Below are positions 17,740 through 27,451 of a stretch of 64,000 nt of DNA, piece after piece. The translations under genes were made by a program, and so were the position numbers. Under the pieces are notes generated by a model. It saw nothing but the letters and a program-made list of their open reading frames with translations, made no database searches and was not told the DNA's origin. Every line of letters starts with the position of its first letter. Position 1 is the stretch's first letter. The DNA lies in the NCBI RefSeq assembly GCF_001586275.1, contig NZ_CP014545.1:1018501-1082500 (forward strand), read 5' to 3'. This DNA is from Sphingorhabdus sp. M41. Lineage in GTDB: Bacteria; Pseudomonadota; Alphaproteobacteria; Sphingomonadales; Sphingomonadaceae.

Positions 17740-18162
17740 ATGGCCGTGACACGGACATTCTCGATCATTAAACCCGACGCAACCCGCCGCAACATCACTG
17801 GTGCTGTCATCAAAATGCTGGAAGAAGCAGGACTGCGCGTCGTCGCTTCCAAGCGCATCCACATGACCCGTGAACAGGCCGAAGGCTTTTATGCGGTACA
17901 CAAGGAACGTCCGTTTTTTGGCGAACTGGTTGATTTCATGATCAGCGGCCCTTGCGTCGTCCAGGTGCTGGAAGGCGAAAATGCGATGCAGGCCAACCGC
18001 GACATCATGGGCGCGACCAACCCTGCCGACGCGGCTCCCGGCACGATCCGCAAGGAACTGGCTGAAAGCCTCGAAGCCAACACCGTTCACGGTTCTGACA
18101 GCGAAGAAAATGCAGCGATCGAAATCGCCTATTTCTTCAATGAAGACGAAATCGTCGGCTAG
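17740..18162 (+). CDS. ndk: nucleoside diphosphate kinase
   Basis: Ndk balances nucleoside triphosphate pools through a phospho-histidine intermediate. The 140-residue length is normal. It begins [20 protein letters not shown], has [20 protein letters not shown], and carries the active-site His in [18 protein letters not shown] strong hairpin terminator follows at 18191. Confidence 0.98.
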
Positions 18163-18396: not shown

Positions 18397-19101
18397 CTAA
18401 ACAGCTGCGGCCTGGCCCATGGATCTCATGATGATTTGACGATTCGAGCGGTCGGCCTCGAAGCGGGCTAGCGGCACGTCACCGGCTAATATGGCAGCGA
18501 TGATGCGTTGGCGGCCAGCGCGCCATAGCTCGGGTGAAATGAGGCCTTGAGCAGAGACCTCCGGTGGATTTGATAGTGAAAAGTGCAATGTGACTCGTGT
18601 GAGAAGTTCGAACAGCGGACGATTGACCATCCGAAAGAGCATGTTCTGAAATTTCTCTTCGAATAGGCTCAGTTCGGATTGCGGATCGCAATCATCAATC
18701 TCCCTTCCAAGTGCAAGCATCTCCTCTCGTAGCTCCCCCGGAATATCGACACTGGCGGCGGCGGCGCATAGCTCGTTAAAAAGCAACGAGGTCATATCGA
18801 GGGCCTCTTCCCAGGACGCGGGCTGGCTTCGCATATATGCCGCTAAAATGCTCTCAAGCGTATCGATATCGGGTCGGCGACCGAAATAGCCGCCACCCGG
18901 TCCCCGGCGAACTTCAAGCAAGCCTTCATGCTCCAGAATTCGAGCAACCTGCTGAATCGTGACGATGCCTACATTGAAAACCTCGGCAAGCTCGCGAAGA
19001 GATCCAATCTGCGCGCCTGGCTCGTTGGCGAAGACGCGTTGCCGCAATGTTTCGGCCGTGGCCTGAACCAGCTGCCCGCGCTGTCGTGTCTTTTTAACCA
19101 T
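18397..19101 (-). CDS. GntR-family (FadR-type) transcriptional regulator
   Basis: The 234-residue protein has an N-terminal winged helix-turn-helix (about residues 12-80) with the GntR signature GSLRELAEVFNVGIVTIQQV and RRGPGGGYFG, then an all-helical C-terminal ligand domain of the FCD kind that continues to LARFEADRSNRQIIMRSM. GntR regulators of this type usually repress neighbouring catabolic genes until a ligand binds. It diverges from the dehydrogenase gene at 19237, with back-to-back promoters in between, so it is the likely regulator of the 19.2-23.3 kb cluster. A Shine-Dalgarno-like GGCGCAGGAA precedes the ATG. Confidence 0.88.
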   Translation of the reverse strand: MVKKTRQRGQLVQATAETLRQRVFANEPGAQIGSLRELAEVFNVGIVTIQQVARILEHEGLLEVRRGPGGGYFGRRPDIDTLESILAAYMRSQPASWEEALDMTSLLFNELCAAAASVDIPGELREEMLALGREIDDCDPQSELSLFEEKFQNMLFRMVNRPLFELLTRVTLHFSLSNPPEVSAQGLISPELWRAGRQRIIAAILAGDVPLARFEADRSNRQIIMRSMGQAAAV

Positions 19102-19117
19102 TTCCTGCGCCTCTCAA

Positions 19118-19158
19118 TGACTGACGATAATTAAACCTATATAATTTGCATCAGTCAA
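19118..19158 (-). promoter_or_regulatory. promoter and dyad of the GntR regulator gene
   Basis: On the minus strand TTGACT (19153-19158) and TTTAAT (19130-19135) are separated by 17 bases, a good sigma70-type promoter. Inverted heptamers TGACTGA (19118-19124) and TCAGTCA (19151-19157) bracket it, suggesting an operator for autoregulation. TCAGTC also appears at 22441 near the other divergent pair in the cluster. Confidence 0.45.
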
Positions 19159-19181
19159 CAGATAAGGCCTCGAAAATTGCT

Positions 19182-19208
19182 TTGACTCTCGATATATGTG
19201 CATATTAT
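19182..19208 (+). promoter_or_regulatory. possible promoter of the first dehydrogenase gene
   Basis: TTGACT (19182-19187) and TATTAT (19203-19208) lie 15 bases apart, shorter than ideal. ATATG-TG-CATAT between them (19193-19205) is a perfect short palindrome and could be an operator. Confidence 0.35.
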
Positions 19209-19236
19209 AGCGTGATTCATGGAAATCAGGATCAAC

Positions 19237-19980
19237 ATGGATGGCAAGGTTGCATTGGTGACGGGGGCTGCTTCTGGTCTTGGCCGCGCCACCGCAATCA
19301 AGCTTGCGTCGGCCGGTGCGAAGCTTTGCCTTGTCGATGTTGACGAGACGGGGCTTGCAGAGACTTCCGCTATCATTGGTGACAGTGGCGGGGTCGCGAT
19401 AGTGCAAGTTGCCGACTTGACTGATCCGGTAGCGTGCAGCGCGCCGGTCGATCATGCAGCAGATACATTTGGGCGATTTGATGCGCTGTGTAATGTGGCG
19501 GGGCTCATCTATATGGCCAAAACGCCCGATATGCCGGTCGAACAACTCCAGCGCACCATTGCGGTCAACTTGACCGCGCCGTTTCTGCTTTCCCAATCGG
19601 CAATCCCCCATTTGCTCAAGACAGAGGGAGCCATCGTCAATGTCGCTTCTTCGGCAGCCTTTCTGGGCGAGGCTTATGCAGCGGCTTATTGCGCCAGCAA
19701 GTCCGGGCTGGTGGGCATGACCAAGGCGATGGCGATGGAATATGCCAAGCAGCCGATCCGTATCAACGCCGTCGCGCCTGGTGGCATGATGACCAATATC
19801 GCGACGAACATGAAATTTCCGGATGATGCCGATGTGGAACTGATCCGGCGCTATACAGGATTGCGGGGGCTGGTCGAGGTGGACGATGTTGCCGACATGG
19901 TGTGCCTGCTCGCCAGCGATGCCGGGCGCGGTTACCACGGTGCGTGCATAAATATCGACGCAGGCATCACGGCGGGATGA
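19237..19980 (+). CDS. short-chain dehydrogenase/reductase 1
   Basis: This 247-residue classical SDR starts MDGKVALVTGAASGLGRATA, with the TGxxxGxG nucleotide motif and the Asp of VDVDE, which favours NAD. The catalytic residues follow: Ser in NVASSAAFLG, Tyr and Lys in AAYCASKSG, and the NVAGLIYM segment in place of the usual NNAG. I chose the ATG at 19237 because AGGA sits 8 bases upstream; an in-frame ATG at 19219 lacks an SD. It is the first gene of the cluster and faces the GntR regulator. The substrate is not visible, but by context it oxidises a secondary alcohol to a ketone. Confidence 0.93.
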   Translation: MDGKVALVTGAASGLGRATAIKLASAGAKLCLVDVDETGLAETSAIIGDSGGVAIVQVADLTDPVACSAPVDHAADTFGRFDALCNVAGLIYMAKTPDMPVEQLQRTIAVNLTAPFLLSQSAIPHLLKTEGAIVNVASSAAFLGEAYAAAYCASKSGLVGMTKAMAMEYAKQPIRINAVAPGGMMTNIATNMKFPDDADVELIRRYTGLRGLVEVDDVADMVCLLASDAGRGYHGACINIDAGITAG

Positions 19981-20083
19981 TCGTGGATATTTCAATGCTT
20001 CGCGGCCGCAGGAGCCAGGACTCCAGACATTCCAACTGAGCAAAAATTGTCTGGCGAACCTCGAATAACAGGAGTGCGGGTAA

Positions 20084-20869
20084 ATGGCATTTGAACTTGA
20101 TCAATTTCGGCTCGACAACAAGGTGGCAATTGTCACCGGCGCTGGTGGCCGTGGCAATTCTATCGGCCGGGCATATGCCCTGGGCCTGGCCAATGCCGGG
20201 GCTTCCGTTGTGGTGGCCGATCTCAATGAAGATGGGGCACTGGCGGTCGCGGAGGAAGTTATTGCGGCTGGGGGCAAGGCACTGGGCGTCAAAGTCGATG
20301 TTGCAGACGAGGCGTCAACTCTGGCGATGGGGGCAGCGGCGATCGAGAAATTCGGCGGCGTCGATATATTGGTGAATAATGCCGCGCTGATGGTCGATGT
20401 CAGCTATGACAATTGTGAAACCGTCAGCATGGATGCTTGGAACAAGGCCTTTGCAGTCAATCTCAATGGCGCCCTGCTTTGCGCACGCGCTTGCATTCCT
20501 TCGATGCGCGAGCGTGGTGGTGGCCGCATTATCAATCAGACCAGCGGTGGCGCCTTTCCGGCAACCGGTCTTTACGGCATTTCAAAAATCGCTCTGGTGG
20601 GTTTGACGACCACGCTTGCCAAGCAATTTGGCAAAGAGGGTATTACCTGCAATGCGATCGCACCGGGCAATGTGACTTCTGATGCGGGAAAGATGCTGGT
20701 CCCCGATGACTCTCCCTTCATACAGCACCTGCAGGCGACCGTTGCCACCAAGCCCCGCGGCGAACCGGATGAACTTGTCGGCGCACTGATGCTGCTATGC
20801 TCCAAGGCCGGAGAGTGGATCACGGGTCAGACCATTCATGTTGATGGCGGCTGGATCATGCGGCCATAA
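20084..20869 (+). CDS. short-chain dehydrogenase/reductase 2
   Basis: The 261-residue SDR has an extended nucleotide motif, TGAGGRGNSIGRAYA, with Asp in VVADLNED indicating NAD preference, then NILVNNAA-type DILVNNAALM, catalytic Ser in NQTSGGAF, and Tyr-Lys in GLYGISKIAL. The C-terminus ends ITGQTIHVDGGWIMRP, typical of the family. It starts about 100 bp after the first SDR with a good SD (CAGGAGTG), and the beta-diketone hydrolase gene follows 79 bp downstream. Likely one of the steps that makes or removes a carbonyl on the cluster's substrate. Confidence 0.94.
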   Translation: MAFELDQFRLDNKVAIVTGAGGRGNSIGRAYALGLANAGASVVVADLNEDGALAVAEEVIAAGGKALGVKVDVADEASTLAMGAAAIEKFGGVDILVNNAALMVDVSYDNCETVSMDAWNKAFAVNLNGALLCARACIPSMRERGGGRIINQTSGGAFPATGLYGISKIALVGLTTTLAKQFGKEGITCNAIAPGNVTSDAGKMLVPDDSPFIQHLQATVATKPRGEPDELVGALMLLCSKAGEWITGQTIHVDGGWIMRP

Positions 20870-20948
20870 TTGCTGCGCCGCACCGTGAAGCTTTTGCCGA
20901 TGCGTCAGGCATCGACCGTGCCAGATAAATTTCCGGGAGTATGATGAA

Positions 20949-21719
20949 ATGCAACTTAGCGATTACGAAACAAAATATAGCACAATCCGGTTTGAGCGGG
21001 ACAAGGGTGTTCTGATCATGACCATGCACAGTCGTGGTGGGCCGCCGATGTGGGGCATGTCCCTCAACAGCCTGCACGCCGAACTCCCAAATGCCTTTCT
21101 TGACGTGGCGCGCGACACGGAAAACAAGGTCGTGATCCTGACAGGGGAGGGTGACAGTTTTCTGACCAAATTTGATGCGGAGGAAATGTTCCACGAAGGC
21201 AGTCAGGCTGAAATGTGGCCGCGCATTTATGAAGAAGGCGTCGGGCTGCTGAACAACCTGCTGGCGATTCCGGTGCCTGTAATCGGTGCAGTTAACGGGC
21301 CCGCCCATATTCATGCCGAACTGCTGATATTGTCGGATATCGTGCTCGCAGCCGAACATGCCGAATTTGCGGATCTGGCTCACGTCCCGGGTCGAACCGT
21401 GCCGGGCGATGGCGTGCATGTGATCTGGCCGATGTTGCTCGGCCCCAATCGCGGACGCTATTTCCTTTTGACCGGCGAACGCATCGGTGCGGCCGAAGCC
21501 AAGCAACTTGGGGTCGTGGGCGAAGTGCTGCCTGCCGCCGAATTGCTGACCCGCGCCAGGGAGCTCGGATCGCAACTGGCGCAATTGCCGACCCCTGTTC
21601 TGCGTTACACGCGTCAGGTTCTGGTGCACGATCTACGCTGCCGGATGATGAACGGTCTGGCCGGTGGCCTTGCCCATGAAGCACTCGGCTCGCTCACAGC
21701 GGCAGCGGCCAAAGGCTGA
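20949..21719 (+). CDS. crotonase-fold beta-diketone hydrolase, 6-oxocamphor-hydrolase-like
   Basis: The 256-residue crotonase-family protein resembles Rhodococcus 6-oxocamphor hydrolase (OCH) more than enoyl-CoA hydratases. As I recall them, both share ENKVVILTG, LLNNLL, VPGDG-HV-WP and NRGRYFLLTG. OCH cuts a C-C bond of a cyclic beta-diketone by a retro-Claisen reaction. Its catalytic set, His45, His122, His145, Asp154 and Glu244, is matched here by His43 (SLHAEL), His122 (HIHAE), His145 (LAHVPG), Asp154 (PGDGVH) and Glu244 (LAHEAL). CoA-dependent hydratase glutamates are not in the usual places. The actual diketone is unknown; the neighbouring SDRs could produce it. The OCH comparison is from memory. 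Confidence 0.88.
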   Translation: MQLSDYETKYSTIRFERDKGVLIMTMHSRGGPPMWGMSLNSLHAELPNAFLDVARDTENKVVILTGEGDSFLTKFDAEEMFHEGSQAEMWPRIYEEGVGLLNNLLAIPVPVIGAVNGPAHIHAELLILSDIVLAAEHAEFADLAHVPGRTVPGDGVHVIWPMLLGPNRGRYFLLTGERIGAAEAKQLGVVGEVLPAAELLTRARELGSQLAQLPTPVLRYTRQVLVHDLRCRMMNGLAGGLAHEALGSLTAAAAKG

Positions 21720-21912
21720 CGGCAGTATAAGCTTGGCAGCCCTCGACGACCTTCCCAAATTTGCTCGTCACAGAATGGAGTCAGTCCCTATTGGCGTACC
21801 GCTATGACCATTGGAGGAGATTGGCACTTCCCGACGGGCGGCATAGGTCAGGGCACGGCCGCATGCCCCCTCCGCCAGGGCTAGCTGCTGCCCTTCGCGC
21901 ACCCAAATCTCT

Positions 21913-22419
21913 TTACCCTAGCGAATTACCACCAACATGATGCCCCACCGTCACTGCTGAACTACTCGCCTCCGCTGATCGTTCCCAGTCGTGGAAGGCT
22001 TCCCGCTTGACGATGATCCAGCTGCCATTGCGCCGTTCAAGTCTGTCACAATAGCGACCGGCAACGATCCAGTCCGTTGCCTTGCCACGGGTTTCGCACG
22101 GAGCGAAGTCGGGATTGCCCGCTTCAATATAATGATAGGCGACAAAATTGGCCTCGGTGGTGGCGCTGTTGCCGTCGTCCGACAGGTCGATGTGTACATT
22201 GGAGATGGAGTGGTGGGTGCCAGGGATATTTTCCAGCGTCTGGCTGGCAAAGCCGATGAACTCGTCCGGCGGTCCCTCATATTCGGCATGCTTGTGGACA
22301 TGATCATCGGCAAAACAGGAGCGGACCAGCGGCCAGTCGCGGCGATCAATCCCCTTGCAATAACGATGCAGGATATCGCGAATCTCTTCGCGTGCCGACA
22401 GCTGCTCCAATGTGTACAT
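21913..22419 (-). CDS. SnoaL-like (NTF2-fold) protein
   Basis: The 168-residue protein has the start typical of SnoaL-like domains, ARAEIRDIL-type SAREEIRDILHRYCKGIDRR, then DWPLVRSCFADD, TTEANFVAYHYIEA, and a C-terminal sheet ending RRNGSWIIVKREAFHDW. The fold is a cone-shaped pocket shared by ketosteroid isomerases, limonene epoxide hydrolases and dioxygenase small subunits; the catalytic chemistry varies and cannot be fixed from sequence. An AGGAGA lies just before the ATG. It faces the third SDR and its promoter region shares TCAGTC with the regulator's promoter, so it probably belongs to the cluster. Confidence 0.83.
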   Translation of the reverse strand: MYTLEQLSAREEIRDILHRYCKGIDRRDWPLVRSCFADDHVHKHAEYEGPPDEFIGFASQTLENIPGTHHSISNVHIDLSDDGNSATTEANFVAYHYIEAGNPDFAPCETRGKATDWIVAGRYCDRLERRNGSWIIVKREAFHDWERSAEASSSAVTVGHHVGGNSLG

Positions 22420-22503
22420 CCCTGATATCTCCTAATTTTGTCAGTCGTTATAATTTGACTCTGGCCCTAGCCTTCACCGCAATGACTGTTGAGGAGATAA
22501 AGC

Positions 22504-23277
22504 ATGGGCAGACTGCAAGGCAAAGTGGCAATAATAACAGGCGCGGCCAAGGGACTGGGCGAAGCTGATGCCCGGATGTTTGCGCGCGAGGGCGCGACCG
22601 TCATCCTCACCGACATGGACGAAGAAAATGGTCAGCGGGTTGCCGGAGACATTGGTGATGCGGCTGAATTCCAGATTCAGGATGTCCGCGATGAACAGGG
22701 CTGGGAGGACTTGGTTGCCGATGTCGTTTCTCGCCATGGCAAGCTCGACATATTGGTCAATAATGCCGGTGTGGTCGAACCGGGAACGATCGAGACGCAA
22801 ACGGCCGAGGAATATCGCTTCGTCATGGCGGTGAGTGCCGATGGCGCCTTTTTTGGCTGTAAATATGCGGTGCCCGCGATGAAAGCCTCTGGTGGAGGGA
22901 CGATCATCAACATGTGCTCGATCGCTTCGATCATCGGTGAGCCGATCGTCGTCGCTTATGCGATGGCCAAGGGTGCAATCGAGAGTCTGACCCGCAGTGT
23001 CGCGGTCCATTGCGCGAACAACAAATATAATATTCGCTGCAACAGCGTCCACCCTGCTGGGATATTAACGCCAATGGTCGAGGCCATCGGTCCCAAGGTC
23101 ATGGGCCGCGACGATCTCCGCCCTTCCAGCGAAGGGCCAGCACCAAGCGCGCTGGGCGAACCGGATGATATCGCCAATACCATATTGTTTCTGGCATCGG
23201 ACGAAAGCAAGTTCATCAATGGCGCCGCCATCAGGGTCGATAATGCGAAATCAGTGATGGAGGGTGTGGTGCCCTGA
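22504..23277 (+). CDS. short-chain dehydrogenase/reductase 3
   Basis: The 257-residue SDR begins MGRLQGKVAIITGAAKGLGE, with TGxxxGxG motif and LTDMDEE, favouring NAD. Catalytic residues are Ser in NMCSIASIIG and Tyr-Lys in VAYAMAKGA; DILVNNAGVV is present. Its sequence resembles hydroxysteroid or cyclohexanol-type dehydrogenases (the CNSVHPAGILTPM region), so the substrate may be a cyclic secondary alcohol. A strong SD (GAGGAG) is present. It ends the cluster; a hairpin follows at 23338. Confidence 0.93.
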   Translation: MGRLQGKVAIITGAAKGLGEADARMFAREGATVILTDMDEENGQRVAGDIGDAAEFQIQDVRDEQGWEDLVADVVSRHGKLDILVNNAGVVEPGTIETQTAEEYRFVMAVSADGAFFGCKYAVPAMKASGGGTIINMCSIASIIGEPIVVAYAMAKGAIESLTRSVAVHCANNKYNIRCNSVHPAGILTPMVEAIGPKVMGRDDLRPSSEGPAPSALGEPDDIANTILFLASDESKFINGAAIRVDNAKSVMEGVVP

Positions 23278-23971: not shown

Positions 23972-26900
23972 ATGAATACTCTGATGGACTACCGGGAAAA
24001 GATTCGCACGCATCACCGCAGTGATGAAAATGAAATTCTGGAACATCTGATCTCGAATTTCGGCCCGGATGAGCAGACACGCGAGCGGATTCAGGAGCGG
24101 GCGATTCAGGTTGTCCGGGATGTGCGGAGCGCTTCCGGGCCGACATTGACCGAGAGTTTTCTGGGCGAATATGGTCTTTCCACCGACGAAGGGCTGGCGT
24201 TGATGACGCTGGCCGAGGCGCTGTTGCGCGTACCGGACAATCAGACGATTGATGCACTGATCGAGGACAAGATCGGACCGTCCAACTGGCGCGACCATAT
24301 CGGCCAGTCGGAAAGTTCGCTGGTCAATGCATCGACCTATGCGCTGGAGATGACGCGCAGCGTGATCAACAAGCCGGAAAGCCGCGGCCCGCTCGACGCT
24401 TTGCGGGGCGCCATAAAGCGGCTGGGCGAGCCAGTGATCCGGGTGGCGGTGCGTCAGGCGATGAAGGAACTGGGCAATCAATTCGTGCTCGGGGAAGATA
24501 TGAAGCTGGCGCTGAAGCGAGCGGAGAAGTGGAAAGCCAAGGGCGCGACTTACTCCTATGATATGCTGGGAGAGGCCGCGATTACCCAGGAAGGCGCGGA
24601 CGAATATTTCGCCGCTTATGCCGATGCGATCAAGGAAATCGCCAAGGTCGCTATTTCCGATGACTTGCGGGAAAACCCGGGTCTCTCGATCAAATTGTCA
24701 GCGCTCTATCCACGCTACGAGATGAGCCAGCAGGCAAAGGCGGTTCCCGATCTCGCCGAACGCGTCGGCGAACTGGCGCGCGCCGCGCGAGACGCCAATG
24801 TCGGGCTTAATATCGATGCTGAAGAAGCCTACCGCCTGGGCATATCGCTCGACATGATCGAGATGGTGCTCAGCGATCCGCGGCTTGCCGGATGGGATGG
24901 CTTTGGCGTTGTGGTCCAGGCCTTTGGCAAGCGGGCCAGCTTTGTGCTCGACTGGCTTTATTCGCTGGCGACCCAGCTGGACAGAAAGATCATGGTTCGC
25001 CTGGTCAAGGGCGCCTATTGGGACAGCGAGATCAAGCGGGCGCAGATGGACGGTGTCCCCGATTTTCCGGTATTCACAACCAAATCTGCGACCGATATCA
25101 GCTATATCTGCTGCGCGTCCCAGCTGCTGAAAATGACCGATCGCATCTATCCGCAATTCGCGACCCACAATGCCCATAGCGTTGCCGCCATTCTCGAAAT
25201 GGCTGGAAACCAGCAGGATTTCGAGTTCCAGAGGCTGCACGGCATGGGCGAGACATTGCACGATGCCTTGCTCCGCAATGAAAAAGTGCGCTCACGAATC
25301 TATGCTCCCGTCGGAAAACACCGTGAATTGCTCGCCTATCTTGTCCGGCGCCTGCTGGAAAATGGTGCGAACTCGTCCTTTGTGAACCAGTTGGCCAATC
25401 ATACGGTGGCTGCCGAAATGATCGCGACCGATCCATTCGAGACGCTGAAGGCCGATCAGCAATCAAGCCGGTCGAAGATCATCAAGCCTGGCGATCTGTA
25501 CCAGCCGGACCGGGTCAATTCGCGCGGCTGGGATCTGGCCAATCGCACCGACATGAATGAATATGTCGGCGAGCGCGCGCCCTTCGCCGAAAAGCTTTGG
25601 CGTTCGTCAGCTATCACCGTGCGGCCGGTAACCAGTGGAACCACTCACAAGATATTCAATCCGGCACGCGTGGATATTCAGGTCGGAGAAGTGATCGAGG
25701 CTGACGAGAACCAGGCTCTGCAAGCCATAGAAGACGCCCGCGTCTGGGATGCTCCGGTAGCCGAGCGGGCTGCGATCCTGTGCAGAGCCGCCGATCTTTA
25801 CGAGCACCATCATGGCGAAATTTTCGCATTACTGGCGCGCGAAGCGGGCAAAACCCAGTTCGATACGATCGCCGAATTGCGGGAGGCGGTCGACTTCTTG
25901 CGCTATTATGCCAAGGAAGCGGAGAAGCATCCGGAGAGCAAGCCGCGTGGCATAATCAGCTGCATCTCGCCCTGGAATTTCCCGCTGGCGATTTTTACCG
26001 GTCAGGTGGCCGCCGCGCTGGCTGCAGGCAATGCGGTATTGGCGAAACCCGCTGACCAGACGCCGCTTATTGCGGCTCTGGCTACCAATTTGCTGCACGA
26101 AGCCGGCGTTCCCGTTGCTTCTCTGCAGTTGCTGCCGGGCGCTGGTGCGACCGTGGGAGCAACGATCAGCGGCGATGCTCGGATCAATGGTGTCTGTTTT
26201 ACCGGCTCTACCGCGACCGCGCAGACGATAAACCGGAATATCGCCGAAAATGGTCAGGCGGACTCGCTGCTGATCGCCGAGACCGGCGGTCTGAACTGCA
26301 TGATCGTCGATTCGACCGCTTTGCCGGAACAATCGGTTCGCGATATCATCACCTCGGCATTCCAGTCCGCCGGGCAGCGTTGTTCGGCGTTACGGGTCCT
26401 CTATTTGCAGGAAGATGTCGCCGAGCCATTTCTGAACATGCTCTATGGTGCCATGGATGCAACGGAGATGGGCAATCCCTGGTGGCTGTCGACCGACATC
26501 GGCCCCGTTATCGATCAGGATGCGCAAGATAAAATCAGCGCACACATAGCGAGGGCAGAGAAGGACGGCAGATTGCTCAAGCAACTCGACTGTCCGGATG
26601 AGGGCTATTTCGTCGGACCGGCGGTCATCAGGATCGATGGGATCGACGATCTGGCAGAAGAGATATTCGGTCCGGTCCTGCATGTTGCCACGTTCAAGAA
26701 TGACGAGCTCGACAAGATCATCGACGATATCAACAGTCGCGGATACGGACTGACCTTCGGCCTGCAGACCCGGATCGAGCGCCGCATCGACAAGCTGACC
26801 AGTGCCTTGAAGGTCGGAAATATTTACGTCAATCGTAACCAGGTTGGTGCTGTGGTCGGGTCGCAGCCCTTTGGCGGAGAGGGTCTTTCCGGCACCGGCC

Positions 26901-27451
26901 CCAAAGCCGGCGGCCCGCATTATCTGCCGCGCTTCCATGCAGGATCCAGGCCGGTATCGATATTGACTCACGGCGAAGAGTTGAATCTCGAAAGGATTCA
27001 GACAGCACTCGACGATCTGCCTCCGGTCGACACGCGACCACGCAGTTCCGAGATCATGCCCGGACCAACCGGTGAATCGAATGAGCTGTTAACCTATGCG
27101 CGGGGGACGATATTGTGCCTCGGCCCAACGCGGGAGGATGCTGCAAGGCAGGCGGAGACGGCACATCGGCAAGGTTGCGTAGCGCTGATCTGCGTTCCCG
27201 GCGCTACCGGAGAACATACGCTCGACGGATTTGTGCCTCGGGAAATTCTGTCTGCGTTGACCGGTATGGATGCCGTTGTCTGCTGGAGTGAAATCGAGGA
27301 TATCCGCGCCATCCGCAAGGCGCTTGCCATGCGCGACGGGCCGCTGATCCCGATCATCACCGAAGAGAGTTTCGGCCACCAATGTCTGGTCGAACGCCAC
27401 GTCTGTATCGATACAACTGCTGCGGGAGGAAATGTGTCGCTACTGACCTAG
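23972..27451 (+). CDS. putA: bifunctional proline dehydrogenase / pyrroline-5-carboxylate dehydrogenase PutA
   Basis: PutA oxidises proline to glutamate in two steps using FAD and NAD. The 1159-residue protein begins directly with the helical and proline dehydrogenase region (EEAYRLGISLDMIEM, YSLATQLDRKIMVRLVKGAY, THNAHSVAAILEM, RRLLENGANSSFVNQLA) to about residue 470. The aldehyde dehydrogenase half follows, with CISPWNFPLAIFTGQ, Glu in LIAETGGLN and catalytic Cys in FQSAGQRCSALRVL, then a C-terminal extension. The ribbon-helix-helix DNA-binding domain of the enterobacterial protein is absent, so it is catalytic only. SD AGGAAAC precedes the ATG. Confidence 0.97.
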   Translation: MNTLMDYREKIRTHHRSDENEILEHLISNFGPDEQTRERIQERAIQVVRDVRSASGPTLTESFLGEYGLSTDEGLALMTLAEALLRVPDNQTIDALIEDKIGPSNWRDHIGQSESSLVNASTYALEMTRSVINKPESRGPLDALRGAIKRLGEPVIRVAVRQAMKELGNQFVLGEDMKLALKRAEKWKAKGATYSYDMLGEAAITQEGADEYFAAYADAIKEIAKVAISDDLRENPGLSIKLSALYPRYEMSQQAKAVPDLAERVGELARAARDANVGLNIDAEEAYRLGISLDMIEMVLSDPRLAGWDGFGVVVQAFGKRASFVLDWLYSLATQLDRKIMVRLVKGAYWDSEIKRAQMDGVPDFPVFTTKSATDISYICCASQLLKMTDRIYPQFATHNAHSVAAILEMAGNQQDFEFQRLHGMGETLHDALLRNEKVRSRIYAPVGKHRELLAYLVRRLLENGANSSFVNQLANHTVAAEMIATDPFETLKADQQSSRSKIIKPGDLYQPDRVNSRGWDLANRTDMNEYVGERAPFAEKLWRSSAITVRPVTSGTTHKIFNPARVDIQVGEVIEADENQALQAIEDARVWDAPVAERAAILCRAADLYEHHHGEIFALLAREAGKTQFDTIAELREAVDFLRYYAKEAEKHPESKPRGIISCISPWNFPLAIFTGQVAAALAAGNAVLAKPADQTPLIAALATNLLHEAGVPVASLQLLPGAGATVGATISGDARINGVCFTGSTATAQTINRNIAENGQADSLLIAETGGLNCMIVDSTALPEQSVRDIITSAFQSAGQRCSALRVLYLQEDVAEPFLNMLYGAMDATEMGNPWWLSTDIGPVIDQDAQDKISAHIARAEKDGRLLKQLDCPDEGYFVGPAVIRIDGIDDLAEEIFGPVLHVATFKNDELDKIIDDINSRGYGLTFGLQTRIERRIDKLTSALKVGNIYVNRNQVGAVVGSQPFGGEGLSGTGPKAGGPHYLPRFHAGSRPVSILTHGEELNLERIQTALDDLPPVDTRPRSSEIMPGPTGESNELLTYARGTILCLGPTREDAARQAETAHRQGCVALICVPGATGEHTLDGFVPREILSALTGMDAVVCWSEIEDIRAIRKALAMRDGPLIPIITEESFGHQCLVERHVCIDTTAAGGNVSLLT

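Follow-up and report, generated by a model that had tools for sequence, protein, structure and literature searches.

A candidate repressor-controlled cassette carrying a 6-oxocamphor-hydrolase-like enzyme in Sphingorhabdus sp. M41

A four-gene accessory unit downstream of ndk

The stretch analysed here (the window, 64 kb from Sphingorhabdus sp. M41) covers positions 1018501–1082500 of a single 3.34 Mb contig. Between ndk (17740–18162) and putA (23972–27451), both named by sequence inspection, it carries six open reading frames (ORFs) which an earlier note had read as one cluster for cyclic-diketone catabolism. Four of them form an accessory cassette. A GntR-family regulator, presumed to be a repressor (18397–19101, minus strand; Pfam GntR, 30.5 bits for a cut-off of 27), is divergent from three plus-strand genes encoding two short-chain dehydrogenases (SDRs), SDR1 (19219–19980 as an ORF; Pfam) and SDR2 (20084–20869; PRK07774 family, NCBIfam NF005853 with 316.9 bits over a cut-off of 303), and a crotonase-fold hydrolase (20949–21719) assigned to the beta-diketone (6-oxocamphor) type by phmmer, residues and tree. 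The spacer between regulator and SDR1 holds a predicted promoter with an operator-like motif (19182–19210, plus strand), as judged by motif matrix score and sequence. The two remaining ORFs, a SnoaL_4 protein (21913–22419, minus strand) and a third dehydrogenase, SDR3 (22504–23277, plus strand; best solved relative a 3beta/17beta-hydroxysteroid dehydrogenase), are genus-core neighbours outside the cassette, as judged by Pfam and comparison with congeners. The ORF list and Pfam bear out the positions and classes that had been given for all six.

The borders come from the genus. Locus comparisons rest on tblastn, own-script gene calls being noisy in GC-rich loci, where they missed some hydrolase genes. 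The hydrolase was detected in one of 32 genomes of the genus (24 of them at least 90% complete and at most 5% contaminated), its own (E ≤ 1e-40). SnoaL was found in all 10 genus members of the family sample, M41 included, and in 11 of 397 family genomes overall; in this and the other family screens (hydrolase, SDR2, GntR) the best few candidates per genome were scored, so that weaker copies may be missed. The order ndk, gap, SnoaL(−)/SDR3(+) was observed in 24 of 26 congener stretches, drawn from 31 other genus members (all but G011, G012, G014, G015 and G020), with SDR3 identities of 86–96% across those 24; the pair lies elsewhere in G026 and outside the 14 kb stretch compared in G002. The gap itself measures between about 20 bases (G021) and about 9 kb (G016), and its cargo differs between species: among 16 stretches read, an SDR of another kind occurs in 4, a secreted-looking protein of 631–641 aa in 7 and a TonB-receptor-like protein in 3, labels given by sequence reading and 27–30% tblastn matches rather than by profile searches. 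Since the hydrolase was detected in no other genus member, the SnoaL/SDR3 pair is core and the gap is variable, the real accessory unit is the regulator with SDR1-SDR2-hydrolase (18397–21719), carried as cargo in this gap. Thus SnoaL and SDR3, which the earlier note had counted as members, fall outside, being present downstream of ndk without the hydrolase; nor is the run of genes unbroken, since SnoaL is on the minus strand and divergent from SDR3. Congener genomes can in this way correct cluster borders drawn from adjacency alone, where core neighbours are mistaken for partners.

No integrase or insertion sequence was recognised by eye in the ORF lists (no profile search was made), and no convincing flanking repeats were seen around the cassette. 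The SnoaL homologue of congener G005 (L120) carries one in-frame TGA, and could be a pseudogene or reflect a sequencing error.

The hydrolase belongs with beta-diketone hydrolases by sequence

Searched against solved structures with phmmer, the hydrolase matched 6-oxocamphor hydrolase best (1o8u, E 7.1e-67), followed by a second entry of that enzyme in which alanine replaces H122 (E 1.7e-65) and by the Anabaena beta-diketone hydrolase (ABDH, alr4455; 2j5g, E 2.9e-60); the first enoyl-CoA hydratase came at 1.4e-21. Identity reaches 51% over 241 columns with 6-oxocamphor hydrolase (1o8u, 1szo) and 44% over 238 columns with alr4455 (2j5g, 2j5s). All eight marker positions compared (W35, H43, H122, E124, D142, H145, D154 and E244) are the same in the window enzyme and 1o8u. 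H122, which has a role in 6-oxocamphor hydrolase, is present in the window hydrolase, 1o8u and 2j5g and in none of six aligned paralogues of the same genome (L002–L007, six of ten other own-genome matches; L008 gave no match in the alignment). The tryptophan before H43 is likewise shared with 6-oxocamphor hydrolase, whereas alr4455 has a phenylalanine in place of W35. Between W35 and H43 the window enzyme carries a three-residue insertion, also found in its sphingomonad clade and in several neighbours but absent from 1o8u and 2j5g.

According to PMC3584854, the catalytic residues of ABDH are D153, H144, E243 and H43; the corresponding four, H43, H145, D154 and E244, are all kept in the window hydrolase. 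The same source gives E144/E164 (1ey3 numbering) as the catalytic glutamate pair of enoyl-CoA hydratase and places H146 of 3q1t at the E164 position, which leads, through 3q1t, to H144 of ABDH. In our alignment, a comparison covering E164 only, the window enzyme has H145 at this position instead of the glutamate.

In a tree, 43 rows including both solved beta-diketone hydrolases were split from the six enoyl-CoA-hydratase-like paralogues with 100/99 support. The window enzyme paired with that of Pontixanthobacter aquaemixtae (100/99) within an eight-row sphingomonad clade (100/99). The rows exclude duplicates (L011, L034), a near duplicate (L018) and a truncated sequence (L064), and L017 and L057 are identical. 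Pfam ECH_1 matches the protein, and its best NCBIfam match, NF005595 (enoyl-CoA hydratase/isomerase family), stays below the cut-off (112.5 for 292). On these comparisons, the enzyme is a true relative of 6-oxocamphor hydrolase and beta-diketone hydrolase, as the earlier note had proposed, and does not fall among ordinary enoyl-CoA hydratases.

The dehydrogenases have their nearest kin in an ALDH-CMD operon

All three SDRs carry YxxxK and a glycine motif, which in SDR2 is a variant one; an acidic residue follows their second strand and favours NAD. Cyclohexanol dehydrogenase and levodione reductase stand near the top among solved relatives of SDR1, although matches are loose in the SDR superfamily. 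SDR1 probably starts at 19237 and not at 19219, because a ribosome site needs room behind the −10-like element, whose last base is 19210; AGGATC precedes the second ATG.

An SDR2 orthologue was found in 20 of 397 family genomes, M41 included (E ≤ 1e-75). We examined 16 loci: L146–L157, from 12 of the 19 other genomes, the P. aquaemixtae locus (L040) and three plasmid records (L180–L182); G322, G376, G328, G225, G344 and G394 are outside this set. Half of these loci (L146, L148, L149, L151, L152, L153, L180 and L181) carry an aldehyde dehydrogenase (ALDH) and a CMD protein in the order ALDH-CMD-SDR1-SDR2, with identities of 61–78% for ALDH and 52–64% for CMD (or being the reference itself; the ALDH reference is that of L146) and, relative to the window, 55–73% for SDR1 and 62–84% for SDR2. 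This sphingomonad operon, GntR/ALDH-CMD-SDR1-(NAD oxidoreductase)-SDR2, is exemplified by plasmid pKN1 of S. yanoikuyae CC4533; its regulator is 46–56% identical to that of the window and its divergent spacer has a similar promoter/operator-like motif. It varies, with two loci lacking a close GntR, one carrying GntR downstream of SDR2, and two more devoid of CMD and SDR1; at L147 and L150 regulator, ALDH and SDR2 are present without CMD. A more distant ALDH (41–43%) was seen at L155, L156 and L182, and none of at least 40% at L154, L157 and L040. L158, a further locus, has no close SDR2.

Unlike this operon, the window has neither ALDH nor CMD and carries the hydrolase after SDR2. The sole ALDH match in the window is the ALDH domain of PutA (28%); CMD had no match in the window, and none in the whole genome in a search run without a positive control. 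In an SDR2 tree, the window protein grouped with those of G314, G201, S. yanoikuyae, Novosphingobium sp. RL4 and P. aquaemixtae (six rows, 96/100), the branching order inside this group not being resolved. By sequence, the nearest kin of the regulator and dehydrogenases is thus the ALDH-CMD operon and not a described diketone cluster. Neither the gene combination of the window nor the ALDH-CMD-SDR operon was found described in a literature search, which is weak evidence since subscription papers were beyond its reach.

A predicted operator in the divergent spacer

Orthologues of the regulator occur in 8 of 397 family genomes, M41 included (E ≤ 1e-25). Of the seven others, six are no more than about 5 kb away from SDR2; the seventh, in G115, has no SDR1 or SDR2 match in 20 kb and a 42% ALDH about 4 kb away. 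At the SDR2 loci, a close GntR (46–56%) was observed at L146–L151, L180 and L181, among them six of the eight ALDH-CMD loci, and is divergent from the ALDH gene except at L151, where it follows SDR2; regulator matches at L152 and L153 are just 28–30%. Eight of nine aligned GntR orthologues match the FCD domain at E values up to 1 (best 1.2e-6) and the window protein does not, so that a divergent FCD-type effector domain is suspected.

The predicted promoter of the window consists of TTGACT, a 17-nt spacer and TTATAG, with the near-palindromic ATATGTGCATAT within. Divergent spacers of the related loci share a common pattern, TTGAc-N17-TTAT with an A/T-rich near-palindrome around TGCA. A matrix built from five of them (L146–L150), the window excluded, ranked 19182–19210 first in the 64 kb on both strands (28.9 bits, the next at 10.2), and leave-one-out recovered all five training sites; these had been aligned by eye after the window spacer was seen, and the hold-out is not fully blind. 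Without the −35 element, a 19-mer matrix again ranked the window site first (26.8 against 14.9 bits). With the 17-nt spacer alone it came second (17.6 against 19.1 bits), and the signal is therefore that of spacer plus promoter. The best motif match at L180 and L181 lies in the same spacer, and the two best at L151 (11.1 and 8.8 bits) immediately precede ALDH; no convincing site was found at L152 and L153, which have no close GntR. Operators of the FadR type (TnGT-ACnA) were absent from the spacers examined.

Scanned over the whole genome, the core pattern gave seven sites where the control gave one, and the only match with zero mismatches was the cassette site. A wider regulon was considered and rejected, the other six sites having two mismatches each and lying inside coding regions called by our own script. 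A single clean site suggests a local repressor, possibly autoregulated. That a regulator faces the catabolic genes, as the earlier note had it, is borne out by the divergent arrangement with SDR1 and by the conserved operator-like motif.

Distribution and neighbourhoods of hydrolase relatives

The hydrolase family was detected in 25 of 397 family genomes (E ≤ 1e-35) and in 49 of 72,556 plasmid records (E ≤ 1e-25), every one of the latter below 60% identity. The closest outside the window is that of P. aquaemixtae (L040, G347), where, as in the window, SDR2 (76%) is directly followed by the hydrolase (79%), the distance in P. aquaemixtae being 22 bp; the locus differs from the window in lacking any GntR match or SDR1 orthologue. 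It is preceded by a Rieske oxygenase, an AMP ligase and a 3-ketosteroid-delta-1-dehydrogenase (KSTD)-like flavoprotein, and followed by SnoaL_4, SDR, SnoaL_4 and MFS genes. Four of the 25 hydrolase-bearing family genomes have a close SDR2 (G000, G347, G314 and G371): it adjoins the hydrolase in two, the window and P. aquaemixtae, and lies on a different contig in G314 and G371. Linkage with the dehydrogenases in relatives holds for the SDR2-hydrolase pair in P. aquaemixtae; conserved linkage of the whole set is not supported. GntR and SDR1 orthologues stand beside the hydrolase in the window only, among stretches of about 20 kb from 22 of the 25 genomes (G182, G230 and G350 being represented by short loci).

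Around other relatives, the neighbours are of several kinds. KSTD-like flavoproteins lie near L042, L053 and L040, the best NCBIfam match of that at L042 being 3-ketosteroid-delta-1-dehydrogenase, below cut-off. CoA-transferase III genes occur near L039, L041, L051 and L059, luciferase-like monooxygenases near L037 and L051 (sequence clustering adds L039 and L041), P450s near L037, L051 and L058, a GMC oxidoreductase near L055 on the opposite strand, and an SDR adjoins L066. On pLA3 of Novosphingobium pentaromativorans a molybdopterin oxidoreductase lies by a relative which lacks H122 and W35 in the alignment.

On a plasmid of Paraburkholderia sprentiae (L174, 5111–8765), genes for a P450, a GMC oxidoreductase and a hydrolase relative of 52% identity are closely packed in that order and surrounded by ferredoxin-type and P450 genes; the set looks complete for hydroxylation, oxidation and cleavage. 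Three hydrolase copies lie within 31 kb in G048 (C1:893075–924036; L024, L034 and L036), two of them with identical scores; these scores, rather than a DNA comparison, suggest a recent duplication.

A candidate retro-Claisen cassette

On balance, we lean towards reading the four genes as a repressor-controlled catabolic cassette, without ALDH-CMD and with a CoA-independent retro-Claisen hydrolase added. It would derive from the sphingomonad GntR/ALDH-CMD-SDR1-SDR2 operon, or share with it regulator, promoter motif and the two dehydrogenases. The GntR protein would bind an operator inside the SDR1-SDR2-hydrolase promoter and be released when a pathway compound binds. As judged by their family, SDR1 and SDR2 would, with NAD, oxidise hydroxyls of a pre-oxygenated ring or side-chain compound to a 1,3-dicarbonyl. 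The hydrolase would then add water across one C-C bond between the carbonyls, yielding a keto acid with an open chain that feeds central catabolism, a retro-Claisen step suggested by the catalytic residues and the 51% identity to 6-oxocamphor hydrolase. Alcohol to ketone through SDR1/SDR2 followed by cleavage would be the most economical order. The SDR, KSTD-like flavoproteins, P450s, GMC oxidoreductase with P450 and luciferase-like monooxygenases found beside hydrolase relatives are in keeping with such chemistry. Several 1,3-dicarbonyls would fit as substrate, a cyclic diketone among them, and the cassette may plausibly serve to open the ring of an oxidised compound. The earlier note was thus right on the class of chemistry and wrong on cluster membership.

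Several observations weigh against this reading. Paralogue L002 retains five of the eight marker residues (H43, D142, H145, D154 and E244), and the tree tool flagged long branches among the paralogues. The three-residue insertion argues against camphor itself as substrate. An ALDH, either the L146 enzyme itself or one 41–78% identical to it, was seen near SDR2 at 13 of the 16 loci outside the window, so that SDR2 may yield an aldehyde or a beta-keto acid rather than a cyclic diketone. Adjacency of SDR2 and hydrolase is seen in just one other genome, and that of GntR or SDR1 and hydrolase nowhere else. CoA-transferase III genes directly upstream in L039, L041 and L051 hint at CoA-ester catabolism nearby. 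Finally, many of the hydrolase relatives stand beside genes that fit no oxidation step: among 20 neighbour ORFs scanned, several of which lie on the opposite strand, three fell into no family, and the remainder included PP-loop, LysR, LuxR-type, histidine-kinase-like, AhpC-like, lipoprotein-like, tannase-like, FadB-like, alpha/beta hydrolase and enoyl-CoA hydratase proteins.

More tentatively, regulator, operator and the two dehydrogenases may be an exchangeable sphingomonad module whose partners have been swapped, ALDH and CMD giving way to a CoA-independent retro-Claisen hydrolase from outside the camphor subclade, with its three-residue insertion close to the active site. If so, one ligand-sensing switch would now drive a different C-C cleavage in a new 1,3-dicarbonyl pathway.

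Among the alternatives, the best surviving, although we think it unlikely, is a cassette acting on a 1,3-dicarbonyl that is acyclic or part of a side chain. SDR2 would make, for instance, a beta-keto aldehyde, and the hydrolase would split it in place of the ALDH and CMD steps of the related operon. The frequent ALDH near SDR2 at outside loci (the exceptions being L154, L157 and L040) and its absence from the cassette are consistent with this; the solved relatives, however, act on cyclic or linear diketones, as generally known for 6-oxocamphor hydrolase and, for the beta-diketone substrate of ABDH, according to PMC3584854. Less probable still, and already largely refuted, is a single six-gene cyclic-diketone cluster including SnoaL and SDR3, with the regulator as its sensor. 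The six genes are mutually adjacent, and SnoaL_4 and SDR genes adjoin some hydrolase relatives (two SnoaL_4 in L040, an NTF2-family gene in L177), but SnoaL/SDR3 occur across the genus without the hydrolase and the window SnoaL is just 29–30% identical to the L040 SnoaL_4 proteins. A decayed or chance assembly without joint function, to which the single occurrence of the hydrolase in the genus might point, is very improbable given open frames without internal stops, regulator and dehydrogenases 46–84% identical to those of related operons and a strongly matching operator-like site. ECH_1 and the sub-threshold NF005595 match could be invoked for an ordinary enoyl-CoA hydratase, CoA-dependent and serving a fatty-acid-like pathway, but this is hardly credible in view of the solved-structure ranking, marker residues, tree, 51% and 44% identities and a cassette without acyl-CoA genes.

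The retro-Claisen cassette offers a short, testable case in a class of C-C hydrolases of which few have been characterised (the solved-structure search showed two), and its predicted operator could serve to find the inducing compound. Oxygenation would be encoded elsewhere in the genome. As the earlier note had observed, no monooxygenase lies inside the cluster; matches elsewhere in the genome number ten for P450 (about nine genes), eight for ring-hydroxylating alpha subunits and four for FMO-like proteins, none of them in the cassette, so that oxygenation could come in trans. Matches to P450, Rieske oxygenase, FMO-like and crotonase proteins are densely grouped at about 88–190 kb of the M41 contig (G000:C1); this group is likely a catabolic island and could feed the cassette.

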